In this document: in pieces, positions 15,324 through 41,174 of the stretch | How positions within the stretch are numbered: position 1 is the first letter of the stretch | How the letters are laid out: the number at the start of each line of letters is the position of its first letter | NCBI GenBank assembly: GCA_946553025.1 | Contig: CAMNRM010000028.1 | Coordinates: 1-61,834, forward strand | Length of the DNA: 61,834 nt | Direction of reading: 5' to 3' | Source: an uncultured Clostridium sp. | GTDB lineage: Bacteria; Bacillota; Clostridia; Lachnospirales; Lachnospiraceae | Notes under the pieces: model-generated | What the model was told of the DNA's origin: nothing | The model's input: the letters and a program-made list of their open reading frames with translations, nothing else | The model's database searches: none | Translations under genes and position numbers: made by a program

Positions 15324-15413
15324 CCTTTCCTCCAATCTGTGCACGTTTTACGTTACTGTTCACATGTTCACAGCCCATCCTGCCCTTTGGGTATATACAG
15401 GCAGGATTAAAAC
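15324..15413 (-). repeat. Leader repeat of hydF (palindrome plus ribosome-binding-site leader)
   Basis: Combines a dispersed palindrome (CGTTACTGTTCACATGTTCA, from 15351) with the leader repeat shared with nadE and the SPFH gene: on the minus strand GGGCAGGATG, then CTGTGAA, then GTGCACAGATTGGAGGAAAG before the start. A hairpin CCTGCC (15379-15384)/GGCAGG (15400-15405) is included. The far end touches the hydG stop codon (15407-15409). Confidence 0.8.
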
Positions 15414-16825
15414 CTGAAATCGCGGTTTCCCTTCTCAATCTCCAGTAACCGCTCCCGGACAATTCCCTGCACCTTTTCCTTGGGGATGTTTCCGATTTCC
15501 TTTTCAATCAGTTCCAGTCCCTTTTTCTTTGTATCCTCCGATGCATAATCCATCAGGTATTCTTTCAGGGTCATCAGCGCATTGGGAAGGCAGCAGTTAT
15601 GGATCTGTCCGGCTTTGCACAGGGACATAAAGCGGTCGCCCGTCCTTCCCTCCCGGTAACATGCCGTACAGAAGCTGGGGATGTAGCCCATGCCCATCAG
15701 CCAGTTCACCACCTCGTCTAAGGAGCGCTTATCGCTGACTTCAAACTGTTCCGAAGATTCCTCCTCCGGCTCCGGATCGACATAGCCGCCCACGCTGGTT
15801 CGGGAACCGCCGGAAATCTGAGAAATGCCAAGATGAAGCACCCTCTCCCTGCACTTTTGGCTCTCTCTGGTGGAAATGATCATCCCGGTATAGGGAACGG
15901 CCACACGGATGCAGGCCACCAGCTTGGCAAAGGTATCATCGTCAATCCCGTTATCAAATACATCCGGATCGATATCGTCCGCCCTGCGGATTCTGGGCAC
16001 GCTGATGGTGTGCGGGCCTACGCCGTAAACGGCCTCTAAGTGCTCGGCGTGCATCAAAAGTCCGGCAAACTCATAGCGGTAAAGTTCCAGACCAAAAAGT
16101 ACGCCGCAGCCGACATCGTCGATTCCGCCCTCCATAGCACGATCCATCGCCTCGGTGTGGTAATTATAGTCATGCTTGGGCCCCGTAGGATGAAGCTTTA
16201 AATAGCTTTCTTTGTGATAGGTTTCCTGGAATAAAATATAGGTTCCAATCCCCGCATCCTTTAATTTCCGGTAATTTTCCACCGTCGTCGCCGCAATATT
16301 GACATTCACCCTGCGGATTGCGCCGTTTTTATGCTTAATGCTGTAGATGGTCTTAATGCTGTCCAGCACATACTCAATCGGACAGTTCACCGGATCTTCC
16401 CCGGTTTCCAACGCCAGACGCTTATGCCCCATATCCTGCAGGGCGATAACCTCCTGCCGGATCTCCTCCTGGGTCAGCTTCTTCCTGGGGATGTGTTTGT
16501 TCTTTGCATGGTAGGGACAGTAGACGCAGCCATTGACACAGTAATTTGAAAGGTAAAGCGGGGCAAACATAACAATACGGTTCCCGTAAAAATCCTTCTT
16601 AATCTGCTCGGCCAGCGCATAAATTTCCTGGTTTTTATCCTCTAACGCACAGTCAAGCAAAACCGCAGCCTCCCTGTGGGTGAGGCCCTTAAGTTCTCTC
16701 GCCTTGGCTAAAATCCGGTCAATTAATTCACGGTTTGTCCGGTTCTTTTTGGCGTAATCGAGGGTTTCTAAAATCTCCTCGTGGTTAATAAAATCGTCAG
16801 CGCATTTTGATTTTGGATCGTACAT
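15407..16825 (-). CDS. hydG: [FeFe]-hydrogenase H-cluster radical SAM maturase HydG
   Basis: Radical SAM tyrosine lyase that makes CO and cyanide ligands for the hydrogenase active site. The 472-residue protein has the SAM-cluster motif CVNGCVYC (CxxxCxxC, near 97) and a C-terminal cluster region CTACYREG...CKAGQIHNCC (near 390-420) that distinguishes HydG from ThiH. The start follows AAAGGA. It lies between hydE and hydF. The hydrogenase structural gene is not in the window. Confidence 0.97.
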   Translation of the reverse strand: MYDPKSKCADDFINHEEILETLDYAKKNRTNRELIDRILAKARELKGLTHREAAVLLDCALEDKNQEIYALAEQIKKDFYGNRIVMFAPLYLSNYCVNGCVYCPYHAKNKHIPRKKLTQEEIRQEVIALQDMGHKRLALETGEDPVNCPIEYVLDSIKTIYSIKHKNGAIRRVNVNIAATTVENYRKLKDAGIGTYILFQETYHKESYLKLHPTGPKHDYNYHTEAMDRAMEGGIDDVGCGVLFGLELYRYEFAGLLMHAEHLEAVYGVGPHTISVPRIRRADDIDPDVFDNGIDDDTFAKLVACIRVAVPYTGMIISTRESQKCRERVLHLGISQISGGSRTSVGGYVDPEPEEESSEQFEVSDKRSLDEVVNWLMGMGYIPSFCTACYREGRTGDRFMSLCKAGQIHNCCLPNALMTLKEYLMDYASEDTKKKGLELIEKEIGNIPKEKVQGIVRERLLEIEKGNRDFRF

Positions 16826-16863
16826 CGTTGTTTTCCTTTCTACCTCGGGTCAGAAACAGCTTT

Positions 16864-16911
16864 CGTTACTGTTCACATGTACAGCAAGTGCACAGACCTA
16901 AGTAAACAGCA
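16864..16911. repeat. Dispersed palindrome between hydE and hydG
   Basis: CGTTACTGTTCACATGTACA begins at 16864 and is followed by the second-half motif TGCACAGACCTAAGTAAACA, as at 55931-55976. It sits in the leader of hydG, within the 183-bp hydE-hydG gap, which also contains a short stem (GCGTCC/GGACGC, 16972-16986) without a T tract. Confidence 0.75.
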
Positions 16912-17008
16912 GCCATCTTTCCCTTCAGGATTTGCTTTTTTATTTTTATATTTTTATGTCAGCGTCCTTGGGACGCCAACGAATAAACCTGCCGATAAGC
17001 ACTCCGGC

Positions 17009-18061
17009 TTACTGATAATCTCCCCGGTCAACCGCAGCTAAATAGCCTATAGAAGCTAAAGATTCCTTCAGTTTGCTTAAACCCTCTGCCGCTTCTTTCC
17101 CCGTCGAAAGTTTATTATCGTAAAGCTGGTACTTTTCCCGCGCCTTATCAGGAGAGAGGTTTGGCATGACCACATTGGCTCCCGCCAGAATTCCTGCCTC
17201 CCGTCCTCCCAGCTGGGCGGTTCCCAGGGCCGTCGTTGCCGGAAGAAGGACGTGGGGAAGCAAAAGCCGGATTAAACTTAAAAGATACAGCGTCAATTTT
17301 ACATCGCCGCGGGAATAATCACAAAAAGGGCTCTCCCGGTGAGGAATAAACGGCCCAATCCCCACCATCTGCGGCCTGAATTCCGCTAAAAACAGCAAAT
17401 CATCAATCAGGCAGTCCACGGTCTGTCCCGGCGAACCCACCATAAATCCCGCCCCGGTCTGATAGCCCAGTTCCTTTAAGCTGCGCAGACAGTCCATGCG
17501 GCGGGCAAGAGAAAGCTCCGGCGGATGCAGACAGCCGTAATGCACGGGATTGGCCGTTTCATGGCGAAGCAGATAGCGATCCGCCCCGGCTTCTTTTAAT
17601 ATCCGGTAATCCTCTCTCTCCCGCTCTCCCACGGAAAGCGTAACGGCACAGTCCGGAAAACTTTGTTTTATCCTGCGGACAATCGCCGCCAGCCTTTCCG
17701 TCGTAAAATAAGCATCCTCCCCGCCCTGAAGAACAAATGTCCGAAACCCTATGGAAAAACCATAATGGCAGCACTGCATAATCTCTTCTTCCGTCAGCCT
17801 GTAGCGCTCTGCCTTTTGATTTCCCCGGCGGATTCCGCAGTAATAGCAGTCATTTTTACAAAAATTGGTAAACTCAATCAGTCCTCGGATAAAAACCCGT
17901 TTCCCATAAACCCTGTCCCGAATCAGCGAAGCCTCTCCGGCTAAAATTTCCTGACGCTCATCCGTCCTTCCCTCCAAAAGCACCCGCCAATCCTCACGCG
18001 AAAGGGATTCCCCCTGTTTCAGCGCCTCCACACAGGCCCGAAATCTCATTTCTTCTTCCAT
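17009..18061 (-). CDS. hydE: [FeFe]-hydrogenase H-cluster radical SAM maturase HydE
   Basis: Radical SAM enzyme of H-cluster assembly. The SAM-cluster motif is in FTNFCKNDCYYCGIRRGN (near 60-77), followed by the barrel segments FVLQGGEDAYF, RHETANP and GFMVGSPGQT. A GTG four codons upstream is in frame, but the ATG at 18061 has GAGG six bases upstream and is chosen (350 aa, normal for HydE). It follows the TM1266-type regulator gene and precedes hydG. Confidence 0.96.
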   Translation of the reverse strand: MEEEMRFRACVEALKQGESLSREDWRVLLEGRTDERQEILAGEASLIRDRVYGKRVFIRGLIEFTNFCKNDCYYCGIRRGNQKAERYRLTEEEIMQCCHYGFSIGFRTFVLQGGEDAYFTTERLAAIVRRIKQSFPDCAVTLSVGEREREDYRILKEAGADRYLLRHETANPVHYGCLHPPELSLARRMDCLRSLKELGYQTGAGFMVGSPGQTVDCLIDDLLFLAEFRPQMVGIGPFIPHRESPFCDYSRGDVKLTLYLLSLIRLLLPHVLLPATTALGTAQLGGREAGILAGANVVMPNLSPDKAREKYQLYDNKLSTGKEAAEGLSKLKESLASIGYLAAVDRGDYQ

Positions 18062-18106
18062 AGCTAACCTCACTTCATTTCCTGTGCCTTACCCAAGCCC
18101 GGGGAC

Positions 18107-18240
18107 TTCCGTTCTTCTACTCCCCTGGGTTCTTCCTTCTTCTACTCTCCTGGGTTCTTCCTTCTTCTACTCTCCTGGGTTCTTCCTTCTTCTACTCTCC
18201 TGGGTTTTTCCTTTCTTCCACTCCCCTAGGTTCTTCCTTT
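18107..18240. repeat. 25-bp tandem repeat across the 3' end of the hydrogenase regulator gene
   Basis: Copies of a unit TGGGTTCTTCCTTCTTCTAC plus TCTCC begin at 18126, 18151, 18176, 18201 and (degenerate) 18227. The stop codon of the regulator gene (18192-18194) lies inside the array. The array fills the gap to hydE. Confidence 0.92.
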
Positions 18241-18509
18241 CTTTTGCCTCCCTGGCTGCTTCCGGTCTTGGAATACAGAGCCTTGGAGCTGACTCCCGGA
18301 AGTCTTCCCAGCTTCCCGGAAAGGGCACTGATAACATCCGCAGGTGCATCCACAACAATACTGATAATATTAAGCTGCTTCTCCTTATAAGGAATCCCCA
18401 TTCTGCCGATAATATAGCTTCCAAACTGATGCAGCAGCGCATTCACCTGCTCGGCCTGCCGCACATCCTCAATAATAATCCCCAAAACAGCAATTCTTTT
18501 TTCTTCCAT
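18192..18509 (-). CDS. TM1266-type iron-only hydrogenase system regulator with repeat-derived tail
   Basis: Small ACT-like protein (105 aa) of the family found next to hydE/hydG/hydF in Firmicutes. Blocks: RIAVLGIIIEDVRQAEQVNA, YIIGRMGIPYKEK and ISIVVDAPADVISALSGKLG. The ATG at 18509 has AAAGG upstream. An open frame extends further upstream but lacks family similarity. The family core ends around SKALYSKTG, about residue 82. The last 20 or so residues (KRKEEPRGVEERKNPGE) come from the 25-bp repeats and are probably not functional. Predicted regulatory role is from the family name and position only. Confidence 0.88.
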   Translation of the reverse strand: MEEKRIAVLGIIIEDVRQAEQVNALLHQFGSYIIGRMGIPYKEKQLNIISIVVDAPADVISALSGKLGRLPGVSSKALYSKTGSSQGGKRKEEPRGVEERKNPGE

Positions 18510-18922
18510 ATGCCTGCCTTTCTTTTTTCGGTTTATGTGTTTTTCTTTCCTGCACAAAAAAAGAGAATCCCTGAAGATTCCCTGAAATTTATCACCCGCA
18601 AAAAACCACTGCAATGCACAAAAAGGCATCACAATCACATTTAGGGCAGCCCACATTGCAGATGCGCAGACCTGAGTGAACCGTAACCATTCTTTCCATC
18701 AGAGTATCTTCCGGTCAGTTATTTTCTGTTTTTTCGCTTTGCTGCAAGATTTTCTCACAGCGCAGCTTTTATCTGCCTAATATTGTAAGGTAAGTGAAGG
18801 CAGATGTCAATAGAAAAACGATCCTGTTCCACAAAGTCAGCGGGCAGCGCGGTTACTGTTCACACGTTCACAGCAACGGCAGCGTTACTATTCGCACGTT
18901 CACAGCAAGGGGCAGCCGCTGT
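18510..18922. other. Gene-free 413-bp interval between tatD and the hyd operon
   Basis: Holds a weak minus-strand stem (GAATC/GATTC near 18565-18585) next to an A/T tract that could be an attenuator, and several dispersed-palindrome pieces. No convincing gene. The hyd operon promoter must lie here, but I cannot place it with confidence. Confidence 0.5.
18663..18688. repeat. Half copy of the dispersed palindrome
   Basis: TGCGCAGACCTGAGTGAACC followed by GTAACC, matching the second half of the elements at 16864-16911 and 55931-55976. Confidence 0.6.
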
Positions 18923-18939
18923 TCACGCAGTATGTACGG
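18850..18939. repeat. Tandem cluster of dispersed palindromes at the 3' end of tatD
   Basis: Two clear copies (18850-18878 and 18882-18910, each with a GTTACT start and CACGTTCACAGCAA) and a decayed third (18914-18939) that overlaps the last codons of tatD (stop at 18923-18925), so the C-terminal residues of TatD derive from repeat sequence. Confidence 0.8.
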
Positions 18940-19723
18940 GCAAAGAAAATATCCTCTCCGTATTTTTCCTTGCTGCTTTAGTCAGTTCCTCTTCGGAAAC
19001 CTTCATCCATTTTGCCAGTTCTTTTGCCACATAGACAATATTTTGCGGGACATTCACCCGTCCAAGTCCCTGTACATTCTTCGGTGTCAGATAGGGGGCA
19101 TCCGTTTCAATCAAAACCCGGTCAAGAGGAAGGATACTCACCGCATCCCGCAGCACCTTTCCCCGCACGTCATCACAGATCCACCCGGTAATCCCAATCG
19201 AAAAACCCATTTCCAGGTATTTTTCCAACGTTTTTTTACTGCCGGTAAAGCAGTGCACCACGGATGTTTTACAGATTTCCGGATGTTTTTTCAATCGCTT
19301 TATAAAATCCTCTGCCGCATCCCGCTCATGAAGAAATAACGGCTTTTCCCATTTTTCCGCAAGGACAATGTGCTTTTCCAGACAGCGGATCTGGTTTTCC
19401 TTTGTCGAAAACATCCGATCATAGTCCAGTCCGCACTCGCCGACAGCAACAACCCTGGGATTTTCTGCAAGGATTTGTTCTATCTGCCGAAAATCCTCCT
19501 GCTTTGCCCGGTCTGCATTATGCGGATGAATCCCCGCCGTGCCAAATAGACCAAATGCATCATGTGCCTTTAAATATTCATGAATCTTCTTATTCTCTTT
19601 TGTATCCGTCCCGGTTAAAATACAGCCCACGCCGTTTTTCGCTGCCTCGTCGATCACCCGCTGCGGATCGGGAAACTGCCTGCAGAACAGGTTTAAACCG
19701 ATATCATAGTAGTTTATATCCAT
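18923..19723 (-). CDS. tatD: TatD-family metal-dependent DNase
   Basis: Metal-dependent hydrolase, 266 aa from the ATG at 19723. The DIGLNL start lacks the HxH motif of the YcfH branch and matches the E. coli TatD branch. Other metal-site blocks are present: TAGIHPHNA, GECGLDYDR, LFLHERDA, VVHCFTGS and LIETDAPYL. An open frame starts earlier (19780), but the DIGLNL block normally begins the protein. It is divergent from ppdK. The stop codon lies in a dispersed repeat. Proposed roles are 3'-5' exonuclease activity or DNA repair. Confidence 0.9.
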   Translation of the reverse strand: MDINYYDIGLNLFCRQFPDPQRVIDEAAKNGVGCILTGTDTKENKKIHEYLKAHDAFGLFGTAGIHPHNADRAKQEDFRQIEQILAENPRVVAVGECGLDYDRMFSTKENQIRCLEKHIVLAEKWEKPLFLHERDAAEDFIKRLKKHPEICKTSVVHCFTGSKKTLEKYLEMGFSIGITGWICDDVRGKVLRDAVSILPLDRVLIETDAPYLTPKNVQGLGRVNVPQNIVYVAKELAKWMKVSEEELTKAARKNTERIFSLPVHTA

Positions 19724-19915
19724 ATTTCTTTTTATCCTTCCTTTCTGCGGTACTAAATTTTCGTTTCTATCGTTCGGCAATCCATACGATATCCATTATA
19801 ATCCTTTCTGTCTGCATTGGCAAATAAAAAAAGCATCAGCGGCCTGCGTAAATAGAGTGCGTGAATAGCAGTCGAATCCTTCAAAAAAAGTTTTCCATTT
19901 TTTCCAGAAAAAACT

Positions 19916-19943
19916 TTTACTACAGAAAGATTTGTGCTATACT
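19916..19943 (+). promoter_or_regulatory. Promoter of ppdK
   Basis: -35 TTTACT (19916-19921), 16-bp spacer, -10 TATACT (19938-19943), about 115 bases before ppdK, implying a sizeable 5' leader. The rest of the 19724-20058 interval is AT-rich; I see no gene or riboswitch in it. Confidence 0.5.
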
Positions 19944-20058
19944 ATGGTCAGGCCGTTTGTTTTGTGGGTTTTCTTTGTGTGGGAAGAAGGTTCAAAATCA
20001 GGCGGAACTTACATGTAAAGAGTCTTTTTACAAAAATCTCTGAGGAGGAAATTAACGT

Positions 20059-22686
20059 ATGGCAAAGAAATGGGTTTATTTGTTCAGTGAAGGCAATGCG
20101 ACCATGAGAAACCTGTTGGGCGGCAAGGGCGCAAACCTTGCAGAGATGACCAATTTAGGTCTTCCGGTACCGCAGGGCTTCACCATCACAACGGAGGCTT
20201 GTACGCAGTACTACGATGATGGCAGAAAGATCAATGACGAAATCATGGGACAGATCATGGAGCACATTGCTAAGATGGAGGAGATTACCGGAAAGAAATT
20301 CGGTGATAAGGAAAATCCATTATTAGTTTCCGTTCGTTCCGGTGCAAGAGCTTCCATGCCGGGTATGATGGACACCATCTTAAACCTGGGTCTGAATGAA
20401 GAAGTTGTAGAAGTACTGGCAGCAAAATCCGGCAATCCACGCTGGGCCTGGGACTGCTACCGCAGATTTATCCAGATGTTCTCCGACGTAGTTATGGAAG
20501 TTGGAAAGAAGTATTTTGAAGAACTGATTGATAAGATGAAGAAGGAAAAAGGCGTGGTTCAGGACGTTGAACTGACCGCCGATGATCTGAAGGAGCTGGC
20601 TAACCAGTTTAAGGCTGAGTATAAAGAAAAGATTGGCAAGGACTTCCCGACCGATCCGAAGGAGCAGCTGATGGAAGCCATCAAGGCTGTATTCCGTTCC
20701 TGGGACAACCCAAGAGCAAACGTATACCGCCGCGACAACGATATCCCTTATTCCTGGGGTACTGCAGTAAACGTACAGATGATGGCATTTGGAAACATGG
20801 GCGAAACCTCCGGTACCGGTGTTGCCTTCACCCGTGACCCTGCAACCGGCGACAAGCACCTGATGGGCGAGTTCTTAATGAACGCACAGGGCGAGGACGT
20901 GGTAGCCGGTGTTCGTACACCGCAGAAGATTGACCAGTTAAAGGAAGTTATGCCGGAAGTTTACGATCAGTTCGTAAAGATCTGCAATACGCTGGAAGAT
21001 CACTACCGCGATATGCAGGATATGGAGTTTACCATTGAGGATAAGAAGCTGTACATGCTTCAGACCCGTAACGGTAAGAGAACGGCTAAGGCTGCCTTAA
21101 AGATTGCCTGCGATCTGGTTGACGAGGGCATGATCGATGAGAAGAAGGCCGTAGCCATGATCGATCCGAGAAACTTAGATACCCTGCTTCATCCGCAGTT
21201 TGACACTGACGCTTTAAAGAAGGCAGAGCCGATGGCTAAGGCCCTGGCTGCATCTCCTGGTGCTGCCTGCGGTAAGATTGTATTCTCCGCTGAGGATGCA
21301 AAAGAGTGGAAGGCAAGAGGCGAGAAGGTGGTTCTGGTTCGTCTGGAAACCTCTCCTGAGGATATCGAGGGTATGAAGGCCGCGCAGGGTATCTTAACGG
21401 TACGCGGCGGTATGACCAGCCATGCAGCCGTAGTTGCCCGCGGTATGGGTACCTGCTGTGTATCCGGCTGTTCCGAAATTACCATGGACGAAGAACACAA
21501 GAAATTCACCCTGGCCGGAAAAGAATTCCACGAGGGCGACTGGCTGTCCATCGACGGTTCCACCGGTAAGATTTACGACGGCATTATCCCGACCGTAGAC
21601 GCTACCATCGCCGGTGAGTTTGGAAGAATTATGGCATGGGCGGACAAGTACAGAAGATTAAAAGTTCGTACTAATGCAGATACGCCGCACGATGCCAAGA
21701 AGGCAAGAGAACTTGGCGCTGAGGGTATCGGTCTTTGCCGTACCGAGCATATGTTCTTTGAGGGCAACCGCATCGACGCATTCCGCGAGATGATCTGTGC
21801 AGAAACCCTGGAAGAAAGAGAAGCAGCTCTGGAAAAGATCCTTCCCGAGCAGCAGGGCGACTTCGAGAAGCTCTATGAGGCTCTGGAAGGCAACCCCGTT
21901 ACCATCCGTTTCCTTGACCCGCCGCTGCATGAGTTTGTTCCCACCGAGGAAGAGGACATCAAGAAGCTGGCTGACGCACAGGGCAAGACCGTAGAGCAGA
22001 TCAAGGCTATCTGCGACGCTCTGCATGAATTCAACCCGATGATGGGCCACCGCGGCTGCCGTCTGGCTGTAACCTATCCTGAGATTGCCAAGATGCAGAC
22101 CAAGGCGGTTATCCGCGCAGCAATCAATGTAAAGAAGAACCATCCTGACTGGAAGGTAGAGCCGGAAATCATGATTCCATTGATTGGCGATATCAAGGAA
22201 TTAAAGTATGTAAAGAAATTTGTCGTAGAAACCGCTGACGCAGAGATTGCAGCCGCAGGAAGCGACTTAAAGTACGAAGTTGGTACGATGATCGAGATCC
22301 CAAGAGCAGCTCTGACCGCAGACGAGATTGCCAAGGAAGCTGAATTCTTCTGCTTTGGTACCAACGACTTAACCCAGATGACCTACGGCTTCTCCCGCGA
22401 CGACGCCGGCAAATTCTTAAATGCATACTATGATGCAAAGATCTTCGAGAATGACCCATTTGCAAAACTGGATCAGATCGGTGTTGGCAAGCTAATGGAA
22501 ATGGCTATTCAGTTAGGCAAGCCCGTTCGTCCAGAACTGCACGTAGGTATCTGCGGCGAGCACGGCGGCGACCCGACCTCCGTAGAATTCTGCCATAAGA
22601 TTGGTCTGGATTATGTATCCTGTTCACCATTCAGAGTTCCGATTGCACGGTTGGCGGCAGCTCAGGCGGCGATTAACGAGGCGTAA
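20059..22686 (+). CDS. ppdK: Pyruvate, phosphate dikinase
   Basis: Interconverts pyruvate, ATP and phosphate with PEP, AMP and pyrophosphate; in clostridia a glycolytic or gluconeogenic enzyme. The 875-residue length is typical. Blocks in order: ATP-grasp segment RSGARASMPGMMDTILNLG (near 94), swivelling phosphohistidine domain GGMTSHAAVVARGMGTCCVSG with catalytic His near 455, and the TIM-barrel PEP/pyruvate site ending with Cys in VGICGEHGGDP near 833. Start preceded by GAGGAGG. The 3' end is duplicated 620 bp downstream. Confidence 0.98.
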   Translation: MAKKWVYLFSEGNATMRNLLGGKGANLAEMTNLGLPVPQGFTITTEACTQYYDDGRKINDEIMGQIMEHIAKMEEITGKKFGDKENPLLVSVRSGARASMPGMMDTILNLGLNEEVVEVLAAKSGNPRWAWDCYRRFIQMFSDVVMEVGKKYFEELIDKMKKEKGVVQDVELTADDLKELANQFKAEYKEKIGKDFPTDPKEQLMEAIKAVFRSWDNPRANVYRRDNDIPYSWGTAVNVQMMAFGNMGETSGTGVAFTRDPATGDKHLMGEFLMNAQGEDVVAGVRTPQKIDQLKEVMPEVYDQFVKICNTLEDHYRDMQDMEFTIEDKKLYMLQTRNGKRTAKAALKIACDLVDEGMIDEKKAVAMIDPRNLDTLLHPQFDTDALKKAEPMAKALAASPGAACGKIVFSAEDAKEWKARGEKVVLVRLETSPEDIEGMKAAQGILTVRGGMTSHAAVVARGMGTCCVSGCSEITMDEEHKKFTLAGKEFHEGDWLSIDGSTGKIYDGIIPTVDATIAGEFGRIMAWADKYRRLKVRTNADTPHDAKKARELGAEGIGLCRTEHMFFEGNRIDAFREMICAETLEEREAALEKILPEQQGDFEKLYEALEGNPVTIRFLDPPLHEFVPTEEEDIKKLADAQGKTVEQIKAICDALHEFNPMMGHRGCRLAVTYPEIAKMQTKAVIRAAINVKKNHPDWKVEPEIMIPLIGDIKELKYVKKFVVETADAEIAAAGSDLKYEVGTMIEIPRAALTADEIAKEAEFFCFGTNDLTQMTYGFSRDDAGKFLNAYYDAKIFENDPFAKLDQIGVGKLMEMAIQLGKPVRPELHVGICGEHGGDPTSVEFCHKIGLDYVSCSPFRVPIARLAAAQAAINEA

Positions 22687-22780
22687 TCCTATAGTGGTAT
22701 TGGAGTGTAATGGCTACCAAATATAGCGTAATGTAAGATTTGAGAGATATCTGACAATAAAATGTTAGCTATCTCTCTTT
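22663..22780 (+). repeat. Direct repeat, ppdK copy (3' end plus terminator)
   Basis: The last codons of ppdK and its terminator region. A colinear but diverged second copy is at 23283-23400, offset exactly 620 bp with no net length change. The first 31 bases (CAGGCGGCGATTAACGAGGC onward) are identical; later bases have many substitutions. The pair brackets the antitoxin locus. Confidence 0.9.
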
Positions 22781-22782
22781 TT
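22742..22782 (+). terminator. Intrinsic terminator of ppdK
   Basis: Stem GAGAGATA (22742-22749) with TATCTCTC (22770-22777), followed by five T residues. The duplicated copy ends at 23361-23400 with the same stem but a weaker T tract. Confidence 0.85.
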
Positions 22783-22827
22783 AATGTGGAAATAAAGATA
22801 AGGTTTTTGTAAATGTAGTGATCTGTA

Positions 22828-22856
22828 TTGATTTTTAATTGATATTGATATATAAT
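22828..22856 (+). promoter_or_regulatory. Promoter of the antitoxin gene
   Basis: -35 TTGATT (22828-22833), 17-bp spacer, consensus -10 TATAAT (22851-22856), 23 bases before the antitoxin start. An independent promoter is expected for a toxin-antitoxin operon. Confidence 0.65.
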
Positions 22857-22879
22857 TTAAGAAAAAGTGAGGTGAAAGT

Positions 22880-23149
22880 ATGGCAAATGTATCAATTCGT
22901 GTTGATGATGTAGTAAAACAGAGAGCAGAAAGTATATGCTCTGATTTAGGTATGAGTTTATCTACAGCTACAAATTTATTTTACAAAAAATTGATAAGCT
23001 ATGGTGGGATTCCTTTTGAATTGAGGGTAGATCCCTTTTATAGTGAGGAGAATCAGGCACATTTGGAAAAAGTAATTAATAATTATAACCACGGAAAATC
23101 AAATCCTGTTTATAAGAAGATAGAAGAATTGGAGGAAATGGAGGATTGA
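22880..23149 (+). CDS. RelB/DinJ-family antitoxin
   Basis: 89 residues. The N-terminal ribbon-helix-helix (VSIRVDDVVKQRAESICSDLGMSLSTATNLFYKKL) is typical of RelB/DinJ antitoxins, which bind operator DNA and neutralise a partner toxin; the C-terminal toxin-binding part is present (KVINNYNHGKSNPVYKKIEE). GTGAGGTG precedes the ATG. No intact toxin follows, only a Txe/YoeB-like C-terminal remnant overlapping the gene end. Its AT-rich composition differs from ppdK, suggesting acquisition. Confidence 0.9.
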   Translation: MANVSIRVDDVVKQRAESICSDLGMSLSTATNLFYKKLISYGGIPFELRVDPFYSEENQAHLEKVINNYNHGKSNPVYKKIEELEEMED

Positions 23150-23231: not shown

Positions 23232-23282
23232 CTAAATTGTCAGATGATAATAAAAGATAGCTATTCCAAAACGGCTGCCACA

Positions 23283-23400: not shown

Positions 23401-23511
23401 GCATACCTATAGATAATTGCTGCAAAGCTGTCAAAACCTTAAGACCGCAAGATAGATGAAAAGCGGAATAAAATATCCTGCTATAATGCATAGAGAAAGG
23501 AGGTAGCTGCA

Positions 23512-25696: not shown

Positions 25697-25701
25697 AAAG
25701 A

Positions 25702-27461: not shown

Positions 27462-27489
27462 CGTTACTGTTTACTCGTTCACAGCAACG
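27462..27489. repeat. Dispersed palindrome at the 3' end of the acyltransferase gene
   Basis: CGTTACTGTTTACTCGTTCA followed by CAGCAACG, 20 bases downstream of the acyltransferase stop codon. Confidence 0.8.
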
Positions 27490-27508
27490 AAAAACCAAAC
27501 GCTCTTAC

Positions 27509-33725: not shown

Positions 33726-33741
33726 CCTCTAATCGCCCGTC

Positions 33742-34056
33742 CTACCTCCATATACTGAATGCGCTGATTCCCGAAAGTACAGCCAGGGCAATTCCAAAGA
33801 AAAGAAGCCCTGCCCCCCCGGCGATTCTTTTTTTATCCCGTCCGCTCTGACGAATTTTTACCCAGCCGTTGACCAGGTTTAACACGGCAGCCAGCATAAA
33901 AATCACAGGAAAGAGAACCAGATTATTTTCTGCATTCAAAAATGAAATCACGGCTAAGATAACGATAATACTTCCTATGCCGATGTGGAGCACATCCAGG
34001 AAAAATCCCATCCTCCTGCTGGTGCGGCTCCGTCCGTTTGCTCCTTGTCCCTGCAT
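33742..34056 (-). CDS. Small membrane protein of unknown function
   Basis: 104 residues with three hydrophobic segments (about 17-40, 46-66, 79-103) and a positively charged N-terminus and inner loop. AAGGAAG precedes the ATG. Resembles an uncharacterised Lachnospiraceae membrane family, but I cannot name a function. It lies between argF and birA on the same strand, 16 bases from birA. Confidence 0.8.
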   Translation of the reverse strand: MQGQGANGRSRTSRRMGFFLDVLHIGIGSIIVILAVISFLNAENNLVLFPVIFMLAAVLNLVNGWVKIRQSGRDKKRIAGGAGLLFFGIALAVLSGISAFSIWR

Positions 34057-34126
34057 AAACCTACTTCCTTTGCTTTTAAGTATGTAGCCGTGTAGCTTTT
34101 CGGCTGAACATCAATAAAACAGCATA

Positions 34127-35113
34127 CTAACGCAGAGTAGCCGCCATCACTGCCTTAATGGTGTGCATCCGGTTTTCTGCCTCCTCAAAAACCTTGGACT
34201 GCGCAGATTCAAAGACTTCATCGGTTACTTCCATATCCTGAATTCCAAACCGCTCGCTCATCTCTTTTCCTATGGTGGTCTTTAAATCATGGAAGGAAGG
34301 CAGACAGTGCAGGAAAATCGCCTGCGCACCGGCATTATCCATCACCTTGGCAGTTACCTTATAGGGGGTTAAAGCGCGGATTCTCTCCTCCCAGACTTCA
34401 TCCGGCTCACCCATGGACACCCAGACATCCGTATAGATAACATCAGCTCCTTTCGTCCCCTCAGAAACGTCCTCGGTCAGTGTAATCTGACCGCCGGAAA
34501 GAGCGGCATATTCACGGCACTGTGCCGTAAGTTCCTCATTGGGGAAATATTCTTTAGGCGCACAGGCCACAAAATGCATCCCCAGCTTTGCACAGGCAAT
34601 CATCAGGGAATTTCCCATATTGTAGCGTGCATCGCCCATGTAGACCAGCTTAACGCCCTCAAGACGGCCAAGCTGTTCCCGGATCGTAAGCATATCGGCA
34701 AGCATCTGGGTAGGATGATATTCGTTCGTCAGTCCGTTCCAGACCGGAACACCGGCATATTTTGCCAGTTCTTCCACAATCTCCTGTCCAAAGCCCCGGT
34801 ACTCAATCCCCTCATACATCCGTCCAAGAACCCTTGCGGTATCGGCAATGCTCTCCTTTTTTCCAATCTGCGACCCCTTCGGGTCAAGGTAGGTTGTTCC
34901 CATCCCCAAATCGTGGGCAGCCACCTCAAAAGCACAACGGGTTCTTGTACTTGTCTTTTCAAAAATCAGCGCAACATTTTTCCCTCTGTGGCTGTCTACT
35001 AAAATTCCCTTTTTCTTCTTTTCCTTAAAATCCGCTGCCAGATCTAAAAGATACACAATCTCTTCTTTCGTAAAATCCTTCAGTGTTAAAAAATTTCTTC
35101 CCCTTAAATCCAT
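34127..35113 (-). CDS. argF: Ornithine carbamoyltransferase
   Basis: Makes citrulline from ornithine and carbamoyl phosphate in arginine biosynthesis, or works in reverse in arginine catabolism. 328 residues from the ATG at 35113 (GGAGG eight bases upstream). Carbamoyl-phosphate loop [14 protein letters not shown] (near 53), [14 protein letters not shown] (near 134), ornithine-binding MGEPDE and HCLPSFHD near 270. No arginine-biosynthesis neighbours, so the anabolic or catabolic role is open. Confidence 0.95.
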
Positions 35114-35255
35114 CCTGGCTTCCTCCATTCTGTATGTGTTTTACAATAATGCTGTCTATTCTCTTTACAGGTATATCTGCTTCAAGCGTATTTTCGCCTT
35201 TGCTTCCTCTTAAATTACTATATCTGAAAGACTATGTCAAGACTTCTGTTTTGTG

Positions 35256-36398
35256 TTATCTCGTCTTACTTTTATTTAATCCATGATGAATCTTCATCAG
35301 CAATTCCGGCACGCTGTATACCCGCATACGGGAAATGCGGAGTTTTCCTGCCAGATGTTCTAAGACGCTCACATATAAATCCCGGTAATCCCAGTCCTTT
35401 TCCAGACCGAACTCCTGAGCAAGCCGCGGAAAAATCACCTCGGTGTACTTCCGGTAACCAAAAGGCTCTTCCAGTTCCTCCTGGAGAATTCCCCGCATAA
35501 GATAGCCCTTAAGAAGTTCTGCCTCTGACATCATCTTGTCAAAGTAATAAGCCTCACTCCCTGAAGCATCGATATAATACCGCTTTCCGGCAAGCCCGTA
35601 GAGAAGCCTTTTTCCGTCCAGATAACCCAGCTTCCGGTTTCTTCTGGTCTTCTTCTTATCAAACTCCAGGATTCCGCCCAGGTTCTGCCTTGGAGCAATA
35701 TGGTAAAGAGAAACATCTTCCGGGATAACAAAGGACTTTTCCGTATCATAGCCCAGGCCGTAAATCCGGATAACAATAATGTCCTTATAGCCGCGATCCG
35801 CAAGCACATCCACAGGGACATTATTTGCCCCGCCGCCGTCCGCATAAAGCTTTCCGCCAAGCCTCTCCCGCTTAAATCCCGGCAGATAGGCGCTGGCTAA
35901 AAGCATATCTTTCATTTCCCCCTCGGCAACCTCTTTCATATTCACAATCAAAGGCTTGCGGTCGGAAAGAGAAATCGTAGAAACAAAAAATTCTTTATCG
36001 GACTGAAAAATCTTATCTTCGTCAATTGTCCGCTCAATCAGCTGCTTTAACGGGGTAATATCCAGCCCGCGGTCTTTTAAAATCCTTTTTCCCTCGGCAA
36101 GCAGCTCGTGAAGGGAAAGTGAAGAAAAGTCCCTGGCCTTCCACTGCTCAATCAGAGTATCGTCGATATCCATAACCTGTGACCAGGAAATATTATCCCA
36201 GAGTTTCTCTGCCTCTCTCAGATCATCCATGCACATCAGCGCACCGTTTAAGGCTCCCACGCTGGTTCCGGCTATCCCTTTAATCTTAATTCCCGCTTCT
36301 AAAAGCGCCGCCCACGCACCGACCTGATAGGCACCCTTCGCCCCCCCTCCTTCCAGGACAATACCATATTCTTTTGTCGGATCAAGCTGAAGTTTTAT
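35256..36398 (-). CDS. Patatin-like phospholipase with an apparent ATA start codon
   Basis: Serine lipid hydrolase of about 380 aa. Oxyanion loop LEGGGAKGAYQVGAW, nucleophile motif AGTSVGALNG (GxSxG) and catalytic Asp in YADGGG are all present and in one frame. No ATG, GTG or TTG precedes the GGGAKG block. The conserved N-terminus begins IKLQLDPTKEYGIVLEGGG with ATA at 36396-36398, eight bases after AAGGAGG, exactly where ATG is expected. The first GTG is at 36258-36260 and would remove the oxyanion loop. The gene is either expressed weakly from AUA, mutated, or contains a sequence error. Confidence 0.85.
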   Translation of the reverse strand: MKLQLDPTKEYGIVLEGGGAKGAYQVGAWAALLEAGIKIKGIAGTSVGALNGALMCMDDLREAEKLWDNISWSQVMDIDDTLIEQWKARDFSSLSLHELLAEGKRILKDRGLDITPLKQLIERTIDEDKIFQSDKEFFVSTISLSDRKPLIVNMKEVAEGEMKDMLLASAYLPGFKRERLGGKLYADGGGANNVPVDVLADRGYKDIIVIRIYGLGYDTEKSFVIPEDVSLYHIAPRQNLGGILEFDKKKTRRNRKLGYLDGKRLLYGLAGKRYYIDASGSEAYYFDKMMSEAELLKGYLMRGILQEELEEPFGYRKYTEVIFPRLAQEFGLEKDWDYRDLYVSVLEHLAGKLRISRMRVYSVPELLMKIHHGLNKSKTR

Positions 36399-36427
36399 CG
36401 GAGCCGCCTCCTTTTTGTCCTAATATT

Positions 36428-36458
36428 TTGCTGCTGTTTATACGTTCACAGCAACAAT
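36428..36458. repeat. Dispersed palindrome upstream of the patatin gene
   Basis: TTGCTGCTGTTTATACGTTC followed by ACAGCAACAAT, with TTGCTGT/ACAGCAA arms. Confidence 0.75.
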
Positions 36459-36610
36459 ATTTTTTCTTCTCTATATCGATATACGAAATAAACCAAAGAA
36501 AACTGTCACAAAAATCGCCGGAATGCATGTTCTGCTCCTTTCCCTCTGTGACAGTCCTCTCCTGAACTTCTAATTCCTTTTTATTTTTATAATTGCGGGA
36601 GCACGAAGTG

Positions 36611-37561
36611 CTACATCGTGTCCGCCTTATCCAGCACGGTTTCCGTCACGGACTTGGCAAGACCGGCAATGCCCTGAATCTCCGACGGAATAATAATCTT
36701 CGTCGCCTTTCCGTTCGCCGCAGCCGCGAAGGCTTCCAAGCTCTTAAGCTTAATCACCGCCGCGTCAGCCCCGGCCTCCCGGATATACCGGATACCGTCT
36801 GCCTGCGCCTTCTGCACCTTTAAGATAGCTTCAGCCTGGCCCTCGGCTTCCTTAATCTTCTTTTCCTTCTCTGCCTCTGCCCGGAGAATCGCCGCCTGCT
36901 TCTCTGCCTCTGCATCCAGAATCGCCGACTCCTTCTTACCTTCGGCAACCAGAATCGTCGATTTCTTTTCGCCCTCTGCGCGGAGAATGGATTCACGGCG
37001 CTCACGCTCGGCTTTCATCTCCTTCTCCATGGCTTCCTGGATACTGGACGGCGGAATAATGTTTTTCAGTTCCACACGGTTGACTTTAATTCCCCAGGGG
37101 TCAGTAGCCACATCCAGGGAAGCCCGCATCTTGGCGTTAATCGTTTCTCTGGAAGTCAGCGTCTGGTCAAGTTCCAGATCACCGATAATATTTCTAAGTG
37201 TTGTCGCCGTCAGATTTTCAATCGCCATAATCGGATTTTCCACACCGTAGGCAAAAAGCTTCGGATCGGTGATCTGAAAGAAGACAACGGTATCAATCCG
37301 CATGGTAACATTATCCTTGGTGATCACGGGCTGGGGCGGGAAATCAGCCACCTGCTCCTTTAAATTCACCTTTTTTGCCACGCGATCCAGGAAAGGGGTC
37401 TTAAAATGCACACCCACAGACCAGGTATCCAGATAAGCACCCAGACGTTCCACAACAAGGGCCTGCGCCTGGGGAACAATCTTAATACAAGACGACAATA
37501 TCAGCAGGACGATAATAAAAATCAGGAGAATTGCCATAAAACCACTAAAAAAACCACCCAT
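36611..37561 (-). CDS. SPFH/band-7 family membrane scaffold protein (QmcA/stomatin-like)
   Basis: 316 residues from the ATG at 37561 (GGAGG upstream). One N-terminal membrane helix (about 5-25), then the band-7 domain (VPQAQALVVERLGAYLDTWS ... DVATDPWGIKVNRVELKNII) and an extended Ala/Glu-rich coiled coil (about 185-260). Downstream partner of the nfeD-like gene, the usual pair for membrane microdomain or quality-control proteins. Its leader is a copy of the repeat also seen before hydF and nadE. Confidence 0.93.
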   Translation of the reverse strand: MGGFFSGFMAILLIFIIVLLILSSCIKIVPQAQALVVERLGAYLDTWSVGVHFKTPFLDRVAKKVNLKEQVADFPPQPVITKDNVTMRIDTVVFFQITDPKLFAYGVENPIMAIENLTATTLRNIIGDLELDQTLTSRETINAKMRASLDVATDPWGIKVNRVELKNIIPPSSIQEAMEKEMKAERERRESILRAEGEKKSTILVAEGKKESAILDAEAEKQAAILRAEAEKEKKIKEAEGQAEAILKVQKAQADGIRYIREAGADAAVIKLKSLEAFAAAANGKATKIIIPSEIQGIAGLAKSVTETVLDKADTM

Positions 37562-37620
37562 TTTTCCTCCATTCCGTGCGCGTTTCACAGCCTATCCCAC
37601 CCTTTGGGTACAGACAGCTA
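37562..37620 (-). repeat. Ribosome-binding-site leader repeat of the SPFH gene
   Basis: Minus strand: CCCAAAGGGTGGGATAGGCT, then GTGAAACGCGCACGGAATGG, then AGGAAA and the start codon. Nearly identical to the leaders of nadE (41114-41174) and hydF (15324-15413), although the proteins are unrelated. Confidence 0.8.
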
Positions 37621-37728
37621 TGCTTTTTCCCGCACATCAAGGTATTCGCATCAGGAACAAATCATCAAAAGCGAAAAAGATATTTTGACGCTTCTGTCAG
37701 TATATGCTCTTTATGCCAAATTTATGCC

Positions 37729-38190
37729 TTATTGTTTCGTTATTCCGTCGATCTGGTCCTGGGCAGCAGGAAGCACAATCAGCTTCACCCCCCGGATTTC
37801 TTTTACCCAAACCAGAGTTTTTGGGGCAATGGTCAGATTATCATCTGCGGATCTGGCCGTCCACTCCGCACCGTCCAGCACAGCCGTTCCTGTTCCTTCC
37901 CGGTTATCCACCTGCTCCGTAATCCTGGCCTGCCTGCCTATCAGACTTTCAACATTGGTCTTTTTGGTTTTCTGGTTAATATAGCGCAGAGCCATGGGAC
38001 GGGTCAGGGCCAGTAATGCAAAAGAAATCACCACGAATGCCCCAAGCTGAAGCTCCATGGGTGCTCCTAAAAGATAAAGAACCAAACCGGCCAGCGCCCC
38101 TCCGGCAAACCAGATCGTTGTCAGTGCCATCGTCGGTATCTCAATGGCAATAAAAAGAATAAATGCTGCCAGCCATCCAATCAAGCCCAT
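37729..38190 (-). CDS. NfeD-family membrane protein
   Basis: 153 residues: three membrane segments (about 1-65) followed by a cytoplasmic OB-fold domain (IGRQARITEQVDNREGTGTA ... WTARSADD). Short NfeD form without the protease domain. It partners the downstream SPFH protein. AAGGAGGGG precedes the ATG. Confidence 0.9.
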   Translation of the reverse strand: MGLIGWLAAFILFIAIEIPTMALTTIWFAGGALAGLVLYLLGAPMELQLGAFVVISFALLALTRPMALRYINQKTKKTNVESLIGRQARITEQVDNREGTGTAVLDGAEWTARSADDNLTIAPKTLVWVKEIRGVKLIVLPAAQDQIDGITKQ

Positions 38191-38308
38191 ACATGCCCCT
38201 CCTTTCTTTGCATTAAGCTGTTTTTAAGCTTTCGACAATGTATATTTCAATTATCGGTTACCTGTACATCGTACCACATTTCATCCTCCGCCGCAACTTA
38301 ATGATTCC

Positions 38309-39115
38309 TTACAATTTTTCCCTGTAACCCTCTCTCCGCTGACGGGCAGTTTCAAACATTAAAATCGACGCAGCCACGGCAGCATTTAAAGATTCCACCT
38401 TTCCTGCCATGGGAATGCGGATATAGGTGTGGGCAAGGGAGGCAATCGGCTCGGAAAGCCCCTTGGCCTCATTTCCCAGCAAAAATCCGCAGGGAACCGT
38501 AAAATCTTCCCGGTCATAACTTTTTTTCCCTTCAAGATGGGCGGCAAACAGATGAATCCCCGCCTGCTTTATCTTCCGGCAGGCTTCCCGCAGATCCTCA
38601 ACATAGACGAAGGGCACGCGGTAAATGGAACCCATGGTTGCGCGGATCACCTTGGGATTATAAATATCGGCCGTGGTTTCATCCATCACCACCCCGGTAA
38701 TCCCTGCACCCTCTCCTGCCCGCAGAATCGTACCCAGGTTTCCGGGGTCCTGAAGAGTTTCCAGAATCAGGATATGGGCCTTTTCCCCCGCAGAGGAAGG
38801 GTGCAGAAGTTCATCCAGGGTATAATGCTTTTGTTTCACCAATGCCAGAATCCCCTGGGGGGTCTGTGTATCCGCCATGATTTTCATCACCGTATCGCTG
38901 ACCGCCTCCCACGAAAAGCCGGATAAAAGTTCTTTCCGGGCTTTGTTTTTAAGAAAGCTTTCCGACACGTAAATCTGTTCGGTCTGTTCAGGCACAAGTT
39001 CGGAAACCATCCGGATTCCTTCAACCACGTAGAGGTCTTCTTCCCGGCGTGCCTTTGCCTTTTTGACCAGATTGACCACCCGGCGAACCTGTTTATTTGC
39101 TGTGCTGCTAATCAT
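38309..39115 (-). CDS. SpoU/TrmH-family RNA 2'-O-methyltransferase
   Basis: 268 residues. N-terminal substrate-binding L30e-like domain, then the knotted SPOUT domain with motifs LETLQDPGNLGTILRAGEGA, GFLLGNEAKGLSEP and IPMAGKVESLNAAVAAS. Methylates a ribose in rRNA or tRNA; the exact site cannot be read from sequence. It lies directly downstream of nadE on the same strand. Confidence 0.92.
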   Translation of the reverse strand: MISSTANKQVRRVVNLVKKAKARREEDLYVVEGIRMVSELVPEQTEQIYVSESFLKNKARKELLSGFSWEAVSDTVMKIMADTQTPQGILALVKQKHYTLDELLHPSSAGEKAHILILETLQDPGNLGTILRAGEGAGITGVVMDETTADIYNPKVIRATMGSIYRVPFVYVEDLREACRKIKQAGIHLFAAHLEGKKSYDREDFTVPCGFLLGNEAKGLSEPIASLAHTYIRIPMAGKVESLNAAVAASILMFETARQRREGYREKL

Positions 39116-39136
39116 ATGTTCTTCCTCTTCCTGTAT

Positions 39137-41113
39137 TTATTTTCCAAGTTTTTCCAAGTCTTCCGCCCAGATCCTCTGACATGCATCACTTGGCATCCGC
39201 AGATCGCCACGCGGCGAAAGTGCTACCGATCCGACCTTTGGACCATCGGGCAGACAGGATCGCTTAAACTGCTGGGTAAAGAAGCGGCGGTAGAATACTT
39301 TCAGCCATTTTAAAATTACCTCTTTATCATACTCCCCTTCAAAGGCCAGACATGCCAGGCCGTAAATCTTCGATGGCATATAGCCAAAGCGGAGGATGTA
39401 GTAGAGAAAGAAATCATGAAGCTCATACGGTCCCACCAGATCTTCGGTTTTCTGGGAAATTTTGCCCTCCTCTGGCGGGAGAAGTTCCGGACTTACCGGA
39501 GTATCCAAAACATCCAGCAAAACGCCGGCAAGCTTTTCTTCTTTACAGGTATCGGCATAGTAGCGGACCAGATGGCGGACCAGGGTCTTGGGAACTCCCG
39601 CATTTACCCCGTACATCGACATATGATCGCCGTTATAGGTCGCCCAGCCAAGGGCAAGTTCGGACATATCGCCCGTGCCGATAACCATGCCGTTTACCTG
39701 ATTCGCCACATCCATAAGCACCTGCGTCCTCTCCCGGGCCTGGCTGTTTTCATAGGTTACATCATGTTTTTCGGGGTTATGACCGATATCCTTAAAATGC
39801 AGGGAAACCGATTCACGGATAGATATTTCGGTCAGTTCGGCACCTACCTGCTCTGCCATGGCACAGGCATTCTGATAGGTTCGGTCGGTTGTCCCAAAAC
39901 AGGGTATGGTTACGCAGTGAATCTGCTTCCGGTCAATCCCAAGCTGATCAAAGGCGCGCACAGTAACTAACAGAGCGAGGGTGGAATCCAGCCCTCCGGA
40001 AAGACCGATAACCGCGTGACAGCAGCCTGTGTGTTCCAGGCGCTTCTTCAGCCCCATCGCCTGAATCGATAAGATTTCCTCACAGCGCTTCCTTCTCTGC
40101 CCGGCGTCATCCGGCACAAAGGGCGCTTTGTCAACAGGTCTTTTCAGCTGTTCTAAAGAAAAACTTCTTAGATGAAAAAGAACCTCCTCATAGGCTGTTT
40201 CTCCTTTTCCGTTCTCTGCCTGCCCGGGCATAACCGCCATTCTTGCCGCCTGACTGGGCGAAGGAAAGGTATTCATCCTCCGCCGCTCGCTGTCTAAGCG
40301 TTCCAGATCCAGATCGGCAACCGTCATCCCATGAACAAAACGCTCGGACTCTGCAAGACAGGTTCCATTTTCGGCAATGATATTCTGGCCGCCAAACACC
40401 AGATCCTGGGTTGATTCTCCCTCGCCTGCATTGCAGTAAACATAGCCGCACAAAAGTCTTGCCGACTGCCCGCACACCAGTTCATGACGGTAGCTGTCCT
40501 TCCCTGTCGTTTCATTGCTGGCCGAACAGTTGACAATCACGGCAGCACCCGCCATGGCATGACTGATGCTCGGCGGGCAGGGAACCCAGAGATCCTCACA
40601 GATTTCCGCCGCCACGCAGAGCAGGGGAAGTTCTTCACACCGAAACAGCATCCGGCTTCCCATGGCAATATAGTCATTGCTGCCTTCATCCCAGGCATAG
40701 ACGCACTCGTCATCTCCCGGACAGAAATGGCGCATTTCATAAAACTCGGAATAATTCGGAAGATGTTTTTTCGGTATAATTCCCAGAAGCCTCCCGCCGC
40801 TTATGGCTGCCGCCGCATTGTAAAGCTTGCCGTTCCTCTCCCAGGGCAGACCCACAAAAATCAGCATGTCCGCATCTTTTGAAGCTTCAATAACCGTTGC
40901 TAATGCTTCCTTTGCCTTACGAATCAGGGGAAACTGCAAAAACAGGTCCTGGCAGGTATAGCCGGTCAGACAGAGTTCCGGAAAAACCATGAGTTTAACC
41001 TGAAGCCTTTCTCCCTCCTTCATCAACTGAATCACCTGTTCGGCATTATAGGCCGGATCGGCTACTTTAATCTTAGGCGTTGCCGCTGCAACCCGAATAA
41101 ATCCGTTGAACAT
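39137..41113 (-). CDS. nadE: Glutamine-dependent NAD+ synthase
   Basis: Converts nicotinate adenine dinucleotide to NAD using glutamine. About 658 residues. The N-terminal nitrilase-type glutaminase (Glu in MVFPELCLTG near 44, Cys in VAAEICEDLW near 176) is fused to the ATP-dependent synthetase with pyrophosphatase motif GLSGGLDSTLAL near 375 and VIGTGDMSELALGW. The ATG at 41113 follows GGAGGAAA, which is part of a dispersed leader repeat. Confidence 0.97.
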   Translation of the reverse strand: MFNGFIRVAAATPKIKVADPAYNAEQVIQLMKEGERLQVKLMVFPELCLTGYTCQDLFLQFPLIRKAKEALATVIEASKDADMLIFVGLPWERNGKLYNAAAAISGGRLLGIIPKKHLPNYSEFYEMRHFCPGDDECVYAWDEGSNDYIAMGSRMLFRCEELPLLCVAAEICEDLWVPCPPSISHAMAGAAVIVNCSASNETTGKDSYRHELVCGQSARLLCGYVYCNAGEGESTQDLVFGGQNIIAENGTCLAESERFVHGMTVADLDLERLDSERRRMNTFPSPSQAARMAVMPGQAENGKGETAYEEVLFHLRSFSLEQLKRPVDKAPFVPDDAGQRRKRCEEILSIQAMGLKKRLEHTGCCHAVIGLSGGLDSTLALLVTVRAFDQLGIDRKQIHCVTIPCFGTTDRTYQNACAMAEQVGAELTEISIRESVSLHFKDIGHNPEKHDVTYENSQARERTQVLMDVANQVNGMVIGTGDMSELALGWATYNGDHMSMYGVNAGVPKTLVRHLVRYYADTCKEEKLAGVLLDVLDTPVSPELLPPEEGKISQKTEDLVGPYELHDFFLYYILRFGYMPSKIYGLACLAFEGEYDKEVILKWLKVFYRRFFTQQFKRSCLPDGPKVGSVALSPRGDLRMPSDACQRIWAEDLEKLGK

Positions 41114-41174
41114 ATTTTCCTCCAATCTGTGCGCGTTTCACAGCACATCCTGCCCTTTAGGTACATACAGGCAT
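41114..41174 (-). repeat. Ribosome-binding-site leader repeat of nadE
   Basis: Minus strand: CCTAAAGGGCAGGATGTGCT, then GTGAAACGCGCACAGATTGG, then AGGAAAAT and the start codon. The core from AAAGGG to GGAGGAAA matches the hydF and SPFH leaders. Confidence 0.85.

Follow-up and report, generated by a model that had tools for sequence, protein, structure and literature searches.

Dozens of unrelated genes in an uncultured Clostridium start with a shared leader repeat, which suggests a DNA element spreading as a ready-made translation start

Why would genes that have nothing in common start behind the same leader? The question is raised by a contig of 61,834 nucleotides (CAMNRM010000028.1, assembly GCA_946553025.1; its whole length is referred to here as the window) from an uncultured Clostridium sp. 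of the Lachnospiraceae, in which the leaders of nadE, an SPFH gene and hydF contain a common module on the minus strand, ending in CACRGAWTGGAGGAAA-NN-ATG. A first-pass annotation, made from the letters of the sequence, had described a dispersed leader common to these three genes that lends its end to a fourth gene of glycoside hydrolase family 36 (GH36) and brings its own ribosome-binding site; it had further proposed that the leader is mobile and puts its genes under common translational or RNA-level control, possibly as a new regulatory RNA class. We find that the module is a lineage-specifically multiplied repeat that bears a ribosome-binding site and is locked to start codons. That dozens of unrelated genes, some of them essential, start with it suggests a repeated DNA element spreading as a ready-made translation start. 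The module sites in the window are listed here, with E values from a covariance model built on 15 short-form copies with the start codon excluded:

41114..41174, minus strand: nadE module, long form, ending in GCACAGATTGGAGGAAAAT; ATG at 41113-41111; model match 41116-41155, E = 9.2e-8.
37562..37620, minus strand: module of the SPFH/Band 7 gene (Band_7, Pfam), long form; ATG at 37561-37559; model match 37563-37620, E = 9.4e-8.
15324..15406, minus strand: hydF module (HydF domains, Pfam); ATG at 15323-15321; model match 15326-15370, E = 0.0032.
13943..13970, minus strand: module 3' end before the GH36 gene (Melibiase, Pfam); ATGATG at 13945-13940; model match 13945-13970, E = 2.4e-4.
35119..35149, minus strand: weak module-like leader of a gene starting MDLRGRN; ATG at 35113; E = 0.027, with 3 mismatches to the core.

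The core GCRCRGAWTGGAGGAAA is found without mismatch at exactly four sites in the window, 13945-13961 (GH36), 15326-15342 (hydF), 37563-37579 (SPFH) and 41116-41132 (nadE). When as many as 3 mismatches are allowed, the window has 6 matches, compared with a mean of 1.49 in 100 shuffles, of which 1 reached 6. Positions 37562-37622 and 41115-41175 share 84% identity across 61 nt, the hydF leader aligns to the SPFH and nadE leaders in two blocks, and the GH36 leader has only the 3' end of the module in common with them. All four sites are as first described, with amendments: a different palindromic repeat (15352-15373) is nested in the hydF leader and accounts for its greater length, and a fifth, weaker site is added at 35119-35149. 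At hydF the module occupies the entire 83-nt spacer from the TAA of the upstream gene to the start of hydF. The four genes are unrelated, as Pfam reports an NAD synthase with a carbon-nitrogen hydrolase domain, HydF, Band 7 and melibiase; the nearest named match of NadE is from Clostridium sp. chh4-2, at 71% identity and among mostly Lachnospiraceae records, in a search that may omit the own and very near genomes.

The same module is dispersed through the chromosome. The core CACRGAWTGGAGG occurs exactly at 21 places in the 4.87-Mb genome, and the reversed pattern at none. So that copies would not be selected on the Shine-Dalgarno (SD) sequence, the SD-free upstream half CTGTGAAACGYGCAC was also used as a query with up to 1 mismatch, which gave 17 places and 0 in reverse; 13 of the 17 continue into an SD-like sequence and ATG or GTG, one of these 13 being the upstream member of a tandem pair. 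The covariance model matches at E <= 1 in 85 places in the own genome and in 45, 44, 33, 23 and 17 places in the congeners G008, G006, G004, G007 and G005, and finds nothing better than E = 0.007 in G001, G002, G003, G009 and G010. These counts are lower bounds, the best 150 first-look candidates per genome having been scored (of about 2300 in the own genome). The collated own-genome set of 60 copies comprises 21 pattern matches, 33 model matches picked from the 85 mainly by low E value, and 6 SD-free matches. The full form, read from the freshest copies, has a first hairpin (GGGTGAAA..TTTCACCC), a linker ATACCTGT and a second hairpin (TTTGTGC..GCACAGA); the 3' part, AWTGGAGGAAA (AATAGAGGAAA in three identical copies of G203, a genome of another genus), is followed by two free bases and the start codon.

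Nearly all copies stand in the sense orientation directly before start codons. In the collated set, 55 of the 60 precede an open frame that runs for 50 codons or more (53/60 at a 60-aa limit, and 55/62 if L208 and L212, SD-free matches without any SD that stand outside the 60, are included), and in 42 exactly 2 nt separate GGAGGAAA from the start. When the same start-choosing rule is applied to non-module occurrences of GGAGGAAA in a 462-kb sample, 41 of 83 precede such a frame and 5 of the 41 lie at 2 nt; counting the first start only, the values become 37/55 for the own copies versus 5/41. The spacing from GGAGG to ATG, mostly 5 nt in the module, is broad in ordinary leaders, with 5 nt in 21 of 172 GGAGG-ATG starts of that 462-kb sample, among which the window's own module copies are counted. 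The relatives have the same spacing in 25/35 same-genus pattern copies and in 22/33 other copies (of which 25 come from other genera and 8 are additional matches in the same genus). The module thus carries its own SD and adjoins start codons, as had been claimed from the window; the outcome that would have spoken against the first-pass annotation, a module found chiefly elsewhere, did not arise. Such a fixed spacing means that the copies share a template up to the start codon, or that they are placed relative to it.

The genes behind the module are as varied in the genome as they are in the window, which bears out the earlier description of a module dispersed before unrelated genes. NCBIfam assignments for ten of the 60 copies gave argJ, carbamate kinase, prfA, glnA, fructose-6-phosphate aldolase/transaldolase, ilvD (on a stretch cut by the locus end), nusA, upp, exodeoxyribonuclease III and an rsuA-type pseudouridine synthase, and Pfam gave, for further downstream proteins, an AIR-synthase-like protein, a permease, an M20 peptidase, a response regulator, an oligopeptide ABC protein and an aminotransferase. 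No common functional theme is seen among the 20 downstream proteins scanned. An all-against-all comparison of 113 downstream proteins likewise shows mostly unrelated sequences, with five groups of close orthologues across species (nusA in two species, a 125-aa protein in three, a transaldolase-type protein in two, and two further pairs) and two more pairs that are distant paralogues at 26-27% identity. Within the 400 nt upstream of 57 of the 60 own copies lies the end of a same-strand open frame of 60 codons or more (a count without a control set), so many copies lie inside apparent operons.

The presence of the module is specific to lineages. By eye, over 110 nt, it is not seen at nadE in 10/10 congeners, nor at hydF or the SPFH gene in the 9/9 congeners readable at each (G003 being unreadable at hydF and G002 at the SPFH gene), and no exact core is listed at these leaders in the congeners. 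The exact-pattern search matches in 9 of 11 genomes; the low counts in G001, G003, G004, G007 and G010 (1, 1, 2, 2 and 3) are near those of the reversed control (1 in G004, 1 in G009, 2 in G010). On a NadE tree the six carriers need two changes, but the deep forks are open, and a single change is all that the starred branches require. Across the wider family, a match at E <= 1e-4 occurs in 9 of 250 genomes (counting the own), under stricter filters and with the best 26 candidates per genome, so that these counts too are lower bounds. At E <= 0.001 there are 12 matches in G203, including an apparently false one (L345), and none in the sister genome G259, which is 86% complete. Three of the G203 copies are identical over 67 nt, AAGGGTGAAAG..GAGGAAAA; the own-genome copies are more diverged than these. 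The mobility, or copying, proposed in the first-pass annotation is thereby backed indirectly, by the lineage-specific presence and by the three identical copies in another genus. As a side observation, L257 and L245 near position 1500, from two genomes that are 94% identical over a 3-kb locus, differ in the loop and 3' strand of a shared module; judged by eye, the module may evolve faster than its surroundings.

The explanation toward which we lean is that the module is a short dispersed repeat of about 60-70 nt that acts as a ready-made translation-initiation leader; its most likely function is that of a portable ribosome-binding leader multiplied within lineages. Copies would have multiplied separately in several Lachnospiraceae lineages, presumably by transposition-like or conversion-like copying, and each would supply the SD for its downstream gene, in most cases at a single spacing. 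The SD of the module is probably the one used in translation, and, because it is supplied mostly at a 5-nt spacing, a gene that receives it would keep a strong ribosome-binding site whatever its earlier leader had been.

Several observations weigh against this explanation. Five of the 60 copies have no 50-codon frame behind them, one of the other 55 belongs to a tandem pair, as its upstream member, and has a frame of 53 codons, and in L330, one of the three identical G203 copies and an exception to a strict start rule, the ATG of the module begins only a short frame, which overlaps what looks like the real start of the gene. The five genes with the module in two or three species indicate that some copies are old and vertically kept. 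Predicted accessibility of the SD is 0.534 in the own genome (50 of 60 copies scored) versus 0.509 in ordinary leaders (P = 0.30). The spacer before hydF is 83 nt in the own genome and 16-19 nt in G001, G007, G008 and G009, but module-free spacers of 70-105 nt are found in four congeners (G002, G004, G005 and G006), so spacer length alone is no proof of insertion. Finally, the comparisons yielded no clean empty site. G203 and G259 are syntenic, but the gene region of the first copy is missing in G259 and the second leader is ambiguous because G259 has a diverged SD region there that is maybe itself an old copy. Similarly, the site of the G005 copy at C62 is absent from the examined part of G007 (about 256 kb of 3.3 Mb, and some loci), the two genomes having 94% identity over one 3-kb locus.

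The closest known kind is the Start-Associated Sequence (SAS) of phages. In Cluster K mycobacteriophages a 13-bp core recurs 11-19 times, at a typical distance of 3-7 bp from the start, and about half of the sites have an inverted-repeat extension directly upstream, the extended form or ESAS (PMC3203893); both are also found in Cluster EF Microbacterium phages (PMC7302621). In the parts of these reports that we consulted, the likeness lies in the position at the ribosome-binding site, the SD core, the single orientation and the varied genes (PMC3203893, PMC7302621), as well as in conservation beyond what pairs with the ribosome, which for the module is shown by its SD-free half; the SAS authors likewise found little support for hairpins in the mRNA. 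The module differs from SAS as there described in being chromosomal, in preceding housekeeping genes, in its length of 60-70 nt, and in being held mostly at one spacing and lineage-specifically multiplied, whereas the spacing of SAS is looser and its copies fewer. There is no sequence homology by eye between the module consensus and the phage sequences quoted there, GGGATAGGAGCCC and GGGAAAGGACCCC. Viral contigs gave 0 exact matches to two module patterns, viral, plasmid and phage collections no match for the nadE leader, and phage records none for one 3-kb G203 locus.

Two chromosomal comparisons can be added. The TAACTGA direct repeats of marine Beggiatoaceae, as far as the sections consulted describe them, are heptamer arrays whose downstream genes are mostly without an obvious SD; like the module they lie mostly just upstream of the starts of unrelated genes, are patchily distributed (PMC4679880) and have been proposed to have a role in translation, and unlike the module, with its strong SD, they have little SD character. 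The miniature inverted-repeat transposable elements (MITEs) and the repetitive extragenic palindromic (REP) and BOX repeats resemble the module, in the portions of a review that we drew on, in being short, apparently non-coding, hairpin-bearing and dispersed without genes of their own (PMC10969869). The three identical G203 copies are near-identical and recently dispersed, as MITE copies are, but the module has no demonstrated terminal inverted repeats or target duplication, and nearly all of its copies are locked to start codons; in a word search of that review's main text, 'ribosome', 'Shine' and 'start codon' are absent (PMC10969869). The module is a variant of the start-associated kind of repeat, outside the SAS, MITE and riboswitch families, and keyword searches within a library of open-access papers found, for the words used, no description of it.

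A first alternative is a regulatory leader: a protein or small RNA would bind the SD-adjacent hairpin, and the genes would make up a post-transcriptional regulon. A hairpin does lie directly 5' of the SD at a fixed distance, and among the 33 other copies it is more stable than in shuffles (mean z of -1.29, versus -0.64 for windows further upstream). The persistence of the module at the same gene in two or three species, including nusA, the transaldolase-type gene and the gene for the 125-aa protein, would also fit. The signal is weaker in the same-genus pattern copies (-0.70, versus -0.24 further upstream) and weak in the own genome (-0.39 versus -0.09). Nor does covariation rise above shuffles in any of three tests: in fixed-column pair counts; in the 15 short-form copies, where shuffles reach the observed value in 416/500 (cells paired) and 247/500 (covariation score); and in a right-anchored strand-swap test of 128 copies, where they reach it in 86/500. 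The 128-copy set excludes L330 and L333 as identical to L327, L345 as a presumed false match and L027 for lack of upstream sequence. Single copies look compensatory, for example L274 with TGTAC/GTACA, but the whole set does not exceed shuffles. The reading of the module as a structured RNA was set aside on these tests; for the conserved structure on which the first-pass annotation had made its proposal depend, the results range from ambiguous to unfavourable. Rfam has 0 matches in the window at gathering cut-offs.

As for common control of the genes, predicted SD accessibility, tried as the signature of a translation enhancer and rejected, is not higher than in ordinary leaders; it averages 0.532 in other genera and 0.424 in the same-genus set, below the 0.509 of the control (the test covered the higher side). 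The lack of a theme among the scanned proteins and the absence of the module at nadE, hydF and the SPFH gene in readable congeners point the same way. The common control and the new RNA class put forward in the first-pass annotation are therefore not supported, and shared regulation is a minority reading that we consider unlikely. Over 7 loci with E up to 1, Rfam reports only a tetrahydrofolate (THF) and a cobalamin riboswitch, both outside modules. The latter (RF00174, 60.7 bits; L322:1156-1334) lies upstream of a G203 module copy, so one leader may combine both elements, and the former (RF01831, 80.3 bits; L330:226-345) is on the minus strand of a locus with a G203 module copy.

A second alternative, which we hold to be rather improbable, makes the module a site-specific mobile element that inserts between a native SD and its start codon, the SD at its own 3' end rescuing translation. 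In four cases labelled tandem (L019, L326, L317 and L203) the module starts directly after another GGAGGAA, so that an SD stands on both sides of it. In 21 other copies, picked by hand and with their 5' hairpin visible, the 15 nt to the left pair with the anti-SD at a mean of -6.0 kcal/mol, versus -3.1 kcal/mol further upstream (Wilcoxon P = 0.0019), and 19 copies, without L318 and L319 where GGAGGAA is also present, give -5.7 versus -3.1 kcal/mol (P = 0.0053). The three G203 copies identical over 67 nt are also what such an element would leave. However, the left boundaries in both pairing tests were set by eye, and an earlier automatic choice of 15 copies was inconsistent between controls (P = 0.007 against one and P = 0.31 against the other). 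Over the 128 copies a second upstream GGAGGA is not significantly commoner than in control leaders of the own genome (13/128 versus 8/115, P = 0.26), plain GGAGG is not commoner (14/128 versus 14/115), and a broader upstream SD set is weakly so (21/128 versus 11/115, P = 0.08). No terminal inverted repeat was seen by eye. A search for transposases of the Y1 family (PF01797) found none in three carriers, G000 (the own genome), G008 and G185, though it found 3 in the carrier G203 and 1 in the carrier G006, as well as 1 each in G001 and G259. Mobilisation of the IS200/REP type was rejected on the first of these results, although the genes in G203 and G006 leave a past source possible. Insertion between the native SD and the start codon is possible, in that the tandem copies and the hand-picked left flanks point to it and the full set does not.

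A bolder combination of insertion with the portable-leader explanation is one that we entertain tentatively and think doubtful. In it the 67-nt repeat would be a mobile translation-initiation element whose point of integration is exactly between SD and start codon; it would survive in essential genes through its own well-spaced replacement SD, and so selfishly rewire ribosome-binding sites genome-wide. If true, ribosome-binding sites, those of essential genes included, could be acquired whole as a dispersed module, beyond being shaped base by base. The module would be a chromosomal counterpart of the phage Start-Associated Sequences and, for gut Lachnospiraceae, a natural part with which translation starts can be moved between genes, and it would offer a tractable case of a repeat spreading into positions where immediate function is required.

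That there is no repeat at all, and that the leaders have converged on a favourable extended SD context, is highly improbable. AGAA-GGAGG would extend the pairing to the usual 16S 3' end, and at least 4 of the 21 pattern copies (L004, L014, L015 and L020) keep little beyond the 3' end by eye; convergence would not explain the 17 places of the SD-free half itself with 0 reversed, the 67-nt identity among the G203 copies, or a spacing far tighter than that of ordinary SDs. A leader peptide, with the module encoding a short product coupled to the gene, is scarcely credible and was rejected, for although several copies open in the frame of the gene by eye and 14 of 16 long-form copies have a stop codon at the same place, the open frame differs between copies and diversity by codon phase in the 16 is lowest at third positions (0.317, 0.377, 0.265), the opposite of coding constraint.

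The palindrome within the hydF leader belongs to a family separate from the module. Allowing up to 3 mismatches, the genome has 242 occurrences of the high-copy sequence CTGTGAACRTGTGAACAGTAAC and 0 of its reversed control. Its occurrences in the window are as follows:

15352..15373, minus strand: palindrome CTGTGAACATGTGAACAGTAAC inside the hydF leader, one of the 242 places.
16861-16883, 18852-18911, 27463-27490, 36430-36457 and 55934-55961: further palindrome sites matching CTGTGAACRTGTGAACAGTAAC.

Among 30 loci examined, several copies of the palindrome sit in a longer unit with GAGCAAAAATCCC..GGATTTTTGCCC, and several share a unit of ~70 nt, GAGCAAAAATCCCATCGACGAAGGCGATTTTCATGGATTTTTGCCCGTTR.. 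The own genome has no Y1 transposase. Direct tandem repeats of about 36, 46 and 25 nt are present in the window at 951-1104, 1422-1580 and 18099-18249, respectively.

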